This document shows positions 24,466-57,820 of a DNA stretch of 64,000 bases, one piece after another (position 1 is the stretch's first letter; each line of letters opens with the position of its first letter). The notes below the pieces were generated by a model, which worked only from the letters and a program-made list of their open reading frames with translations, made no database searches and was not told where the DNA came from. The position numbers and the translations under genes are program-made. This DNA comes from Buchnera aphidicola (Protaphis terricola). Its GTDB lineage: Bacteria; Pseudomonadota; Gammaproteobacteria; Enterobacterales; Enterobacteriaceae. Where the stretch lies: NCBI RefSeq assembly GCF_964059145.1, contig NZ_OZ060405.1, positions 372,001 through 436,000 of the forward strand, read 5' to 3'.

Positions 24466-25805
24466 TTATATATTTATCAGATCAGTTGTATGTAAAATTT
24501 TATATGCTATTTTTTTTACTTTACTATAATTTTTACCTTCTATCATAATTCTTATACAAGATTCGGTGCCAGATTTCCGTATTAAAATTCGACTACTTTT
24601 TCCTAAAAAATGTTTTGATTTTTCAATAAGTGATTGAAATTTTATATTATTTATAAAGTTGTTGTTTTTTTTTAAAAAAATATTTAATAATATTTGAGGA
24701 AATAATGTTACTTGATTAGATAAACAATATAAAGATAAATTATTTTTAATCATAATAAATAATATTTGTAAACTTGCTATAATGCCATCACCAGTAGAAT
24801 GTTTATCTAATAAAATAATATGTCCTGATTGTTCTGCTCCAAGTATCCAATTTTTTTCTTTAATTGTTTGATATATATAACGATCACCTACATTGGTAGC
24901 AAAAAATGGTATTCCAATTTTTTTTAAACCTAAAATAACACCCATATTTGTCATTAAAGTACCTACAACTCCACCATTTAATTTATTATTTTTTAAATAT
25001 TGTTTAGCAATAATATAAATAATTTGATCTCCATTAACTTGATTTCCTAAATGATCTATCATAATAATACGATCACCATCTCCATCAAATGCTAAACCAA
25101 GATCAGCTTGATTTAATATTACTAATTTTTTTAATTGAACAGTATGAGTTGATCCAGAATTTTTATTAATATTAACACCATTAGGAAAAACAGATGCAGT
25201 AATCACATTAGCACCTAAATCTTTAAAAATTTTAGGAGCTATATTATAAGTTGATCCATTAGCACAATCTAAGACAATAGTAAATTTAGATAAATTTACA
25301 TTTTTAGGTATAGTATTTTTGCAAAAACTAATGTATTTTTCTACCGCATTATTTATTTTATGAGAATAACCAAAAATTTTTACATAAGAAGAATCATATA
25401 AAGGATCGCACAACATATTTTCAATTAAAATTTCTGTTTCACTATTTATTTTAGAACCATTTTTAAAAAAAATTTTTACTCCATTATCATGAAAAAGGTT
25501 ATGAGATGCAGAAATAATAATTCCAGCTGAAGCATTTAGAGATTTAGTTAAATAAGCAATTGCAGGTGTAGGTATACAACCTACTAAATAAGTCGATACT
25601 CCTTTTGATAAAATTCCAAATTCTAATGCATATTGTAACATACATCCTGAAATACGTGTATCTCTTCCTATAACAATTTTTTTTTATCACCACCTAATAC
25701 AGTACTAATAATTTGACCTAATTTCAACATAAAATTTGGAGTAATTGGATATTTTCCTACTTGCCCTCGTATTCCATCTGTTTTAAAATACTTAAAATTT
25801 TTCAT
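24466..25805 (-). pseudogene. glmM: Phosphoglucosamine mutase, interrupted by poly(A) frameshift
   Basis: GlmM converts glucosamine-6-phosphate to glucosamine-1-phosphate for peptidoglycan and LPS. An ATG at 25805 reads [14 protein letters not shown], matching the E. coli start, up to a run of nine A (T at 25677-25685 on the plus strand). There the frame meets a TAG within a few codons. With one extra A the protein continues as [14 protein letters not shown] and stays open to 24466. The total is about 446 residues against 445 in E. coli, with the phosphoserine loop ISASHN near 98-103 and DGDGDR near 240. Only the first 43 codons are out of frame with the rest. Polymerase slippage, true loss or a sequencing error are all possible. 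The product is normally essential, so rescue or error seems likelier than loss. Confidence 0.88.
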
Positions 25806-36813: not shown

Positions 36814-37071
36814 ATGATAAAAATTAGATTAGCTCGATATGGAAATAAAAAACGACCGTTTTATAAAATAGTAGCAGCAGATAGCCGTTTTCCTCGAGAT
36901 GGTCGTTTTATTGAACAATTAGGATATTTTGATCCTTCATCTAAAAATATAATTACTTCTATAAAATTAAATATTAGTCGTATTGAGTATTGGAAAAAAC
37001 ACGGAGCACAAATTTCAGAACGCTCGAAAAAACTTATCAAAACATTTAAAAAAAATGAGAAAACATTATAA
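36814..37071 (+). CDS. rpsP: 30S ribosomal protein S16
   Basis: S16 stabilises the 5' domain of 16S rRNA. The 85 residues (82 in E. coli) include MIKIRLARYGNKKRPFY and ADSRFPRDGRFIEQLGYF, both typical. An AAGAGGA ribosome site precedes it. It heads rpsP-rimM-trmD-rplS, the conserved operon. Its stop codon overlaps the beginning of the open frame of rimM. Confidence 0.97.
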   Translation: MIKIRLARYGNKKRPFYKIVAADSRFPRDGRFIEQLGYFDPSSKNIITSIKLNISRIEYWKKHGAQISERSKKLIKTFKKNEKTL

Positions 37072-37604
37072 ATATTAAATTAAAAAAACCAATTAATCCT
37101 ATTTTATCTGGAAAAATAGGAAAAGCTTATGGAATATTAGGTTGGTTAAATTTTTTTTCTTTTACTGAAAATAAAAAAAAAATATTTAATTATTTTCCAT
37201 GGTTTATTTTAAAAAATAAAACATGGGAAATTATTTTTTTAAATAAATGGAAAACACATAATAATAATTTTATTATTCAAATAAATAATATTATAGATCG
37301 TACTACTGCAAGTAAATGGACTAATATACATATTTTTATAGATCAAAGTACATTACCTATACTTAAAAAAAATGAATACTATTGGAATGATATTATTCAA
37401 TGTAAAATATTTAATACAAAAAAAAAATATTTAGGTATAGTTATTCATTTAATACGAACTAAATATAATGATGTACTTATAATAAAAAATAATTTAGAAA
37501 AAAAAAATATATTAATTCCATTTGTTGTTCAAAAAATAATTAAACATATAGACACTCAAAAAAAAATAATCATAGTAGAATGGAATGAAAAATATGATTC
37601 ATAA
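37068..37604 (+). pseudogene. rimM: Ribosome maturation factor RimM, two compensating poly(A) indels and no standard start
   Basis: RimM binds S19 in the immature 30S head. The frame reads KKPINPILSGKIGKAYGILG and on to YYWNDIIQCKIF and KYNDVLIIKNNLEKK, collinear with E. coli RimM (182 residues). At A9 (37498-37506) it shifts and stops at 37512. The homologous ILIPFVVQKIIKHIDTQ continues in another frame until A10 (37557-37566), after which the original frame returns with IIIVEWNEKYDS and a stop at 37602. So one run is one A short and the other one A long. Upstream, an in-frame TGA at 37056 and the first conserved residues enclose no ATG, GTG or TTG. Candidate starts are ATA 37068 or ATT 37065/37074. 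It may be functional only through slippage, or decaying. Confidence 0.85.
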
Positions 37605-38362
37605 ATTAAAAAAAAAGATAATGAAATAATAATATCATGTTGTATTATTACAATATTCCCAGAAATGTTTAATGCAATTAATCATTATGGAATAACTGGA
37701 AAAGCCATTCAAAAAAAAAAATTGATCTAAAATATTTAAATTTAAGAGAATTTTCTAAAAATAAATATAAATCTATAGATGATCGTCCTTATGGAGGAGG
37801 ACCAGGAATGTTAATAAGTTTAGAACCATTGTGGTTAGCAATTAAACATGCAAAATCTTTACTAAAAGATGCAACAGTGATCTACTTATCGCCACAAGGA
37901 AAAAAATTTAAACAAAATAAAATTTTAGAATTAATTAAAAAGAAAAAAATTATTTTTATATGTGGTAGATACAGAGGAATAGATCAAAGAATTATTGATT
38001 GCTTAATAAATGAAGAATGGTCAATAGGTGATTATATACTTACTGGCGGAGAATTAGCTGCAATGGTAATAATAGATGCTATTGCTCGATTTATTCCTGG
38101 AGTTATTACAAAAAAATCAATAAAAGAAGAATCGTTATATAATGATTTACTTGATTATCCAAATTACACAAGACCCAAAAATATTTATAACATGAGAGTT
38201 CCAAAAATTTTACTTTCTGGTGATCATGAAAAAATTCGTTTATGGCGTCTAAAAAAATCTATAGAAAAAACTTTAGAAAAAAGACCAGATTTATTATTAA
38301 AAAAAAACTTAAATCAAGAAGAAAAAAAAATTTTAAATCAACTTAAAAAACTAAAAAAATAA
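37594..38362 (+). pseudogene. trmD: tRNA (guanine-37-N1)-methyltransferase, two poly(A) frameshifts
   Basis: TrmD makes m1G37 to stop +1 frameshifting and is essential in E. coli. The likely start is ATG 37594, overlapping rimM by 11 bases. After A9 (37608-37616) the homologous frame gives IISCCIITIFPEMFNAINHYGITGKA in pieces. At A11 (37711-37721) it shifts again, and IDLKYLNLREF continues into the long frame with DDRPYGGGPGML, LSPQGKKF, CGRYRGIDQR and EEWSIGDYILTGGE (SPOUT knot). Both runs are one A short. Only the last 184 residues, from ATG 37808, are uninterrupted, and these lack the N-terminal part of the knot. Total restored length is about 256, as in E. coli. Confidence 0.85.
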
Positions 38363-38403
38363 AAATATTTTATAAATATATAAATAATTTATAGAGATTA
38401 AAA

Positions 38404-38751
38404 ATGAATAATATAATTCAAGAAATTGAAAAAGAACAACTTAAAAAAAATATACCTCATTTTCAACCCGGAGATACAATAGAAGTAAAAGTATGGGTAA
38501 TAGAAGGTACCAAAAAACGTTTACAATCTTTTGAAGGAGCTGTAATTGCATTAAAAAACCGATCCTTAAATTCATCATTTACTGTCCGAAAAATTTCAAA
38601 CGGAGAAGCTGTAGAACGAGTCTTTCAAACTCACTCTTATAATATTGAAAATATTATTATTAAAAGAAAAGGACTAGTTAGAAAAGCAAAGCTATACTAT
38701 TTAAGAAAACGTACTGGAAAGTCTGCAAGAATTAAAGAAAAAATTAAATAA
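38404..38751 (+). CDS. rplS: 50S ribosomal protein L19
   Basis: L19 lies at the 30S-50S interface. The 115 residues equal E. coli. [31 protein letters not shown] and [15 protein letters not shown] match the family. It ends the rpsP operon and remains intact although the two genes before it are frameshifted. It is followed by a bidirectional hairpin before tldD. Confidence 0.98.
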
Positions 38752-57167: not shown

Positions 57168-57820
57168 ATGAAATACCCAATTAATGAAATTTTTGAAACT
57201 ATACAAGGTGAAGGTTATTATATTGGCACACCTTCTATTTTTATTCGATTTCAAGGGTGCCCAGTAGGTTGTATATGGTGTGATACTAAATATACATGGT
57301 CTCATTCTATAAAAGAAAAAATTTCTATTAATGAAATGGTAAATAAAAAAAAAATAATAAAAAATGGAGTTTATTAAATATTGAAGATATATTAAAAATT
57401 ATAAAAAAATGGACTTCTAAACATGTAGTGATTACTGGAGGAGAACCATGTTTATATAATCTTATAGATATAACAAAAATTTTAGAAAATAATGGTTATA
57501 AATGTCAAATAGAAACAAGTGGAATTAAAAATATTTTATGCTCCTTGAATACTTGGATTACTTTATCTCCTAAAAAAAATAAAAAACCTACCGAAAAATC
57601 TATAATAGTTTCTAATGAAATAAAATTTCCTATTCTTGAAAAAAAAGATATCTTTTATATATATGAAATATTATCAAGTATAAAAGATAATAAGAAACGA
57701 ATGATTTACTTACAACCGGTTAATCAAGATAAAAAAGCATTAGAAATATGTTTGAATTTATGCAAAAAAAATAACTGGAAATTATCAATACAATTACATA
57801 AATACTTAAATATTCCATAA
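57168..57820 (+). pseudogene. queE: 7-carboxy-7-deazaguanine synthase QueE, poly(A) frameshift
   Basis: QueE is a radical SAM enzyme of the queuosine/preQ1 route, acting after Que[21 protein letters not shown] starts at ATG 57168, preceded by GGA; an ATG at 57156 is less likely. The [4Fe-4S] ligands CPVGCIWC lie at 31-38. At A10 (57345-57354) the frame drifts and stops at 57375. With one more A it continues as [17 protein letters not shown] and joins the frame holding VVITGGEPCLYN and the HKYLNIP end. The restored length is about 217 (223 in E. coli). QueD next door is intact, so the pathway may still operate if slippage occurs. Confidence 0.85.

Follow-up and report, generated by a model that had tools for sequence, protein, structure and literature searches.

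In Buchnera aphidicola of Protaphis terricola, trmD, the gene for the enzyme that provides 1-methylguanosine at position 37 of tRNA (m1G37), cannot be read in any single frame. The gene lies in the 64,000-nucleotide stretch of DNA that we analysed (the window; C1:372001-436000), which is part of a genome of 618,180 bases in three contigs. An in-frame start has been lost, and a run of eleven adenines within the coding sequence is one base short. This pair of frame problems is real and maintained, of a kind already known, and probably corrected at expression. Judging from the sequence comparisons set out below, we give the reading that trmD is functional, with its frame corrected at expression, a probability of about two in three.

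Two frame problems in trmD

The original prediction held that trmD is interrupted at two poly(A) runs, A9 (37608-37616) and A11 (37711-37721), and that no single frame gives a full TrmD. Both runs were found at these positions, and the protein is divided into two pieces that match TrmD profiles separately (NF000648 and TIGR00088). The N-terminal piece has 61% identity with residues 5-27 of Escherichia coli TrmD, and the downstream piece has 51% identity over residues 39-241 and by itself passes TIGR00088 (273.5 bits versus a cut-off of 195). The prediction that only the C-terminal 184 residues are open understates the latter, because the downstream frame runs for 226 codons from stop to stop and the figure of 184 counts from its first ATG. 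A genome search for a possible intact second trmD gave one trmD match only. The frame break in this normally important single-copy gene stands.

Comparison with relatives separates the two runs. From the TIFP motif to the DDRP motif, the DNA measures 129 nt in all but two of the 36 Buchnera genomes. The two exceptions, at 128 nt, are this genome (G000; G-numbers are genome labels) and the distant Buchnera G012, which has A10 at the run homologous to A11. The proposal that each run is short of one A thus holds for A11 but not for A9, since intact kin also carry A9. In a tree built from about 2.1 kb around trmD in 36 genomes of the genus, G000 and G012 sit on different main branches, so the deficit at this one run most likely arose twice; beyond the run in G012, the frame of the gene stays conserved. 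G000 is sister in this tree to a clade of eight that we term the Aphis clade, a name inferred from plasmid matches: the 7.8-kb contig is the leucine plasmid, Buchnera accounts for 54 of the 56 matching plasmid records, and the nearest records are from Aphis species (82.9-84.5%). The features of the locus are as follows, in window coordinates.

37059..37604, plus strand: rimM open frame, stop TAA at 37602-37604, sharing its frame with the TrmD N-terminal piece (TIGR02273 RimM, 1.2e-49)
37580..37588, plus strand: site of the Aphis-clade ATG, by comparison with relatives; here ATG GAA TGA, closed at codon 3
37585..37596, plus strand: ATGs at 37585 and 37594, in a frame that can be joined to TrmD by +1 at A9
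37605..37607, plus strand: ATT in the TrmD frame, adjoining the rimM stop; candidate non-AUG start
37605..37730, plus strand: TrmD N-terminal piece, open up to TAA 37728-37730 (NF000648 positions 3-30)
37608..37616, plus strand: A9 run, of equal length in G033 and G018; the ATG frame reads A AAA AAG at 37611-37617
37682..38362, plus strand: TrmD downstream piece, 226 codons and stop (TIGR00088, 1.1e-81, positions 26-231)
37711..37721, plus strand: A11 run with a one-base deficit by span comparison across 36 genomes; zero-frame heptamer A AAA AAA at 37715-37721
38395..38751, plus strand: rplS (L19) open frame from the open reading frame list, named from E. coli gene order alone

In G033 and G018 the A9 run is followed by the same TrmD frame, begun at an ATG further upstream, whereas the position of the relatives' upstream ATG in G000 leads to a stop at the third codon. 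On this comparison the lesion at the first run is the loss of an in-frame start, not the loss of an A. It is not peculiar to G000: an in-frame ATG, GTG or TTG before the conserved core is missing in 7 of the 36 Buchnera (G000, G013, G015, G019, G022, G024 and G025). All seven have an upstream ATG that can be joined to the TrmD frame by +1 at A9 or A10, versus 6 among the remaining 29 (Fisher P 0.0002), and with G000 and the Aphis clade removed the counts are 3/3 versus 1/24 (Fisher P 0.0014); neither P value is corrected for kinship, and both are optimistic because of shared ancestry.

For this first run alone, it is a serious possibility, at somewhat less than even odds, that translation starts at the ATT at 37605 and that correction is unneeded there. 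This codon adjoins the rimM stop at a position where many relatives carry ATG, and AUU starts are known, as in infC. However, three of the other genomes without an in-frame start (G013, G019 and G025) also lack an AT(T/C/A) codon immediately following the rimM stop, although G025 has Ile codons further on.

Frame breaks elsewhere in the window bear on how the A11 deficit is read. The picture of a genome full of frame trouble was not borne out: a tblastn census, which counted sites with at least two supporting reference genomes and overlooks short terminal fragments, the trmD start among them, gave 3 frame-break sites in the 64-kb window versus 1-3 in each of seven relatives, and long A/T runs are about as numerous in the window as in these relatives. 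One of the broken genes is glmM (minus strand; T9 at 25677-25685 on the plus strand), in which an A9 run has a one-base deficit. A 110-nt span with A9 is common to G000 and all four members of the Aphis clade that were compared (G013, G015, G016 and G018); outside this group, G010 has A11 and a different frame, and the frame is intact in G012 and G034. The evolutionary rate of the glmM frame is unexceptional, at row 32 of 48 in the rate table described below. The shared deficit and the ordinary rate together argue that such breaks persist long in this lineage under selection, and by this evidence glmM is an old, maintained frameshift.

It could be that the assembly undercalls the run, reading A12 as A11, and that only the loss of the start codon is real. 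Homopolymers are the usual place for assembly errors, and the run was judged from the assembly. We nonetheless regard an undercall as decidedly unlikely, as run lengths, up to 13, occur in numbers similar to those in relatives, the 3 frame-break sites in 64 kb include one common to five genomes, and a second species (G012) has a deficit at the same run.

Two further genes may be recorded here. queE is broken at an A10 run (window 57345-57354). G012, with A12, is likewise out of frame; the frame is kept in G010, G013 and G034, and the motif did not locate the site in three relatives. trpG is one open frame in this genome; as the published symbiont of Pentalonia nigronervosa carries a broken trpG, an identity with that strain found no support.

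Probable correction of the frame and maintenance of TrmD

If the frame is corrected at expression, RNA polymerase slippage at A11 would add one A to a share of the messages. Alternatively, ribosomes could slip -1 on A AAA AAA, which would yield a protein identical to the slippage product. We favour transcription slippage over a ribosomal shift, at about 3 to 2. At the 5' end, the ATG at 37585 or 37594 might be joined to TrmD by +1 at A9 or by -1 on A AAA AAG, or there might be weak initiation at the ATT at 37605. The resulting output of TrmD would be low but sufficient.

Published work offers precedents. Where symbionts of aphids and ants carry long poly(A) runs, 12-50% of transcripts are corrected (review, PMC5009743), and homopolymer frameshifts number 8-18 per genome in six Aphidinae Buchnera and 1 and 3 in two others (PMC3164680). 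Rescue by ribosomal frameshifting is expected by another author (PMC7245037).

The part of trmD downstream of the break shows purifying selection. Its ratio of non-synonymous to synonymous substitution rates (dN/dS) against four Aphis-clade genomes is 0.31, which ranks 34th from low to high in a table of 48 rows, two of them trmD rows. The trmD distance from G000 to G010, used as the outgroup for the rate comparison, is 1.17 times the Aphis-clade distance, within a range over rows of 0.86-1.78. A trmD dN/dS of 0.69 is reported at the high end of a Blochmanniella comparison (PMC12779916). From DDRP onward, G000 departs at one residue from a column that is invariant in the other 35 Buchnera. The catalytic and tRNA-binding residues D50, R154 and S165 (here and below in E. 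coli TrmD numbering) are retained. Position 169, Asp in E. coli, is Glu in G000 and in 8/8 genomes of the Aphis clade; we considered this as a catalytic defect and rejected it, because in E. coli a Glu at this position leaves TrmD activity at the wild-type level (PMC8643618).

Among the 32 tRNAs of G000, G37 is present in tRNA-Pro(UGG), tRNA-Leu(GAG) and tRNA-Leu(UAG), and tRNA-Pro retains G37 in 30/30 Buchnera examined. In tRNA-Arg(CCG), position 37 is A in 29 of 30 Buchnera and G only in G033. Escape from the need for G37 through a tRNA change was rejected as an explanation, since A37 in tRNA-Arg(CCG) is common to 29/30 genomes. The original prediction of an impaired TrmD is therefore upheld only in that a lower yield is likely if two corrections are needed; with ordinary rates and with residues and G37 retained, impairment itself did not emerge.

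Several points weigh against a functional, corrected trmD. If the gene needs both corrections, their losses could compound and leave little product. Insertions in Buchnera transcripts rise with run length up to 11 nt, yet no frame-restoring error was detected (PMC5574713), and a reporter study found little slippage of E. coli polymerase on short A runs (PMC6260861). trmD is in the faster half of the 48 rows, and its dN/dS is compatible with a very recent break. At the position of E116, G000 has an Arg that is unique among the 36 Buchnera, the others having Glu (32), Asp (2) or Lys (1), with Lys and Gln also found in outgroups.

As an alternative, trmD could be an early pseudogene, its function recently lost or being lost, and the loss tolerated since m1G37 is not strictly essential. 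The prediction had taken TrmD to be essential in E. coli, which is true only to the extent that nulls grow badly; they are viable, and they recover largely through changes in prolyl-tRNA synthetase (ProRS) (PMC8643618). The two lesions in one gene and the Arg at the E116 position would fit such a loss, as would ProRS itself at first sight. In E. coli, the E19K substitution lets ProRS charge tRNA-Pro without m1G37 (PMC8643618), and the identical K19 occurs in 25 of the 30 Buchnera aligned, versus Glu in 30/30 genomes outside the genus (the alignment holds 30 of the 36 Buchnera and the 30 best-scoring of 60 genomes searched outside the genus). G000 departs at four of the six ProRS rescue sites. 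However, taken as a set the six sites are not enriched for change, either in G000 (P 0.13) or in the Buchnera set (P 0.32), when set against the remaining columns that do not vary outside the genus. ProRS compensation looked promising at individual sites but was rejected for this reason. Loss of function is further opposed by the ordinary trmD rates, with one change from DDRP at a column invariant in the other 35, by the occurrence of Lys or Gln elsewhere at the E116 position, and by G37 in tRNA-Pro of all 30 genomes examined. We consider a pseudogene unlikely, and hold to a functional trmD that would be corrected at expression.

Unique ProRS changes number 4 in G000 and 4 in G012, in a range of 0-8 over 30 genomes; these counts are uncorrected for branch length and we draw no inference from them. 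In another synthetase gene, the match to thrS of G008 covers only profile positions 2-399, has two internal stops and falls below the family cut-off, which the other 35 of 36 genomes exceed.

Possible m1G37 feedback and trmD breaks beyond Buchnera

The original prediction also proposed that impaired TrmD would feed back on frameshifting at the A runs, because loss of m1G37 itself raises frameshifting. The documented effect is on +1 slips of tRNA-Pro at CC[C/U]-N (PMC4519876, PMC8324841). The A runs of the window are lysine codons, and repair at A9 and A11 requires either one more A or -1 slippage of tRNA-Lys, which in G000 has A37 by reading of its loop. We know of no effect of m1G37 loss on lysine A runs, although no search was aimed at one. 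Because the runs are read by a tRNA that is not a TrmD substrate, a TrmD-driven loop at them was rejected; in the window, neither break lies at a TrmD-substrate codon, as a TrmD-dependent autoregulatory frameshift would demand.

Such codons are found at trmD breaks in three other reduced genomes. A trmD match is present in 292 of 295 genomes of the family; two 0.4-Mb genomes, G134 and G296 (95% and 99% complete), are among those with no match. Of about 80 genomes below 1 Mb (a hand count), at least eight have a split trmD: G000, G012, G041, G191, G161, G262, G244 and G304. More may exist, because short upstream pieces, as in G000, are missed by the search. A split trmD, its frame changing twice, is also seen in the large genome G063 (49% complete), which has the look of a noisy assembly.

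By reading of the junctions, five of the eight are internal poly(A) breaks that need one extra A (G000 A11, G012 A10, G262 A13, G161 A12 and G244 A10), and that of G262 is at the same place as that of G000. The remaining three each carry one base too many at a proline codon, CGT CCC AAG in G041, CGC CCC AAG in G191 and ATT CCC AGG in G304; the intact G278 reads CGC CCA AGA at the site of G041 and G191. In all three, a +1 slip from CCC to CCA restores the frame, and the full-length tRNA-Pro match is UGG with G37 (weaker matches were left untyped). In E. coli with only tRNA-Pro(UGG), slippage at CCC-A is 4.2% with m1G37 and 11.6% without it (PMC8324841). These breaks thus have the form expected in sequence of a TrmD-dependent autoregulatory frameshift, and random one-base insertions into five intact trmD genes end at CCC-A in only 0.3-0.8% of cases. 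Around trmD, one T10 run was listed as a further break in 60 kb of G041, one A-run site in 40 kb of G191 and none in 40 kb of G304; the intact G278 has three break sites, of which one is at A9 and the other two fall outside any run. G041 and G191, with 75% identity over the 196 nt compared, probably share one CCC-A event, which leaves two independent cases, seen after the fact. From their size and kinship we infer that G041, G191 and G304 are insect symbionts.

In the loop that these sites would permit, a fall in TrmD would lower m1G37, tRNA-Pro(UGG) would slip +1 more often and more full-length TrmD would be made. The sequences could accordingly be read as a trmD that depends on frame correction in several symbiont lineages, with negative feedback at CCC-A in G041, G191 and G304 and, in the window, poly(A) correction at two places without a loop. 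As a whole we rate this wider scheme quite unlikely. The CCC-A cases would make a self-correcting TrmD circuit directly testable and deserve separate study. A test bed is also provided by trmD itself, whose breaks lie at A runs in certain reduced genomes and at CCC-A in three more.

In G231, of the same genus as G304, mnmG is broken at GGG-A where G304 has GGA, within the SIGGIGK motif. The gene serves a wobble modification, and the site of its break may itself depend on a modification of this kind. Within the same unlikely scheme, this would suggest a wider rule, that frameshift mutations in frame-maintenance genes survive where they are self-suppressing.

Comparison with known frameshifts

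Tamas (2008) and Wernegreen (2010) reportedly described, for Buchnera and Blochmannia, frameshifts in poly(A) tracts that polymerase slippage rescues. As in cases of the Tamas type, trmD is intact apart from an indel in a long A/T homopolymer (at A11, with the start region adding a further lesion), has an intact orthologue in relatives (34/36 at 129 nt) and shows purifying selection on the shifted part with no rate excess on the G000 lineage. It shares with the Buchnera and Blochmannia cases (PMC3017870; PMC3164680) a one-base deficit in a run of at least nine A in a gene otherwise conserved, and recurrence in separate lineages with information-transfer genes included (dnaX, dnaG and pth in Blochmannia). 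It differs from them in the gene and in its second, start-proximal dependence. In the openly accessible part of the literature searched, no account came up of trmD being frameshifted or regulated by frameshifting. The trmD of this Buchnera is most likely a new example of a known poly(A) phenomenon, not proof of a broken enzyme, and brings an important tRNA-modification gene into the set of symbiont genes seemingly living with poly(A) frame breaks.

Two systems from other bacteria resemble parts of what we describe. E. coli dnaX has a programmed -1 frameshift at A AAA AAG, and the A9 region of trmD likewise reads A AAA AAG in the ATG frame, where a -1 slip would lead into the TrmD frame. The difference is that a shift here would repair a gene, whereas that of dnaX yields two products. 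The autoregulatory +1 frameshift of prfB (RF2) is matched only by G041, G191 and G304, where the gene product itself suppresses slippage at the site of the break, CCC-A; it does not apply to the window, whose sites are lysine A runs.
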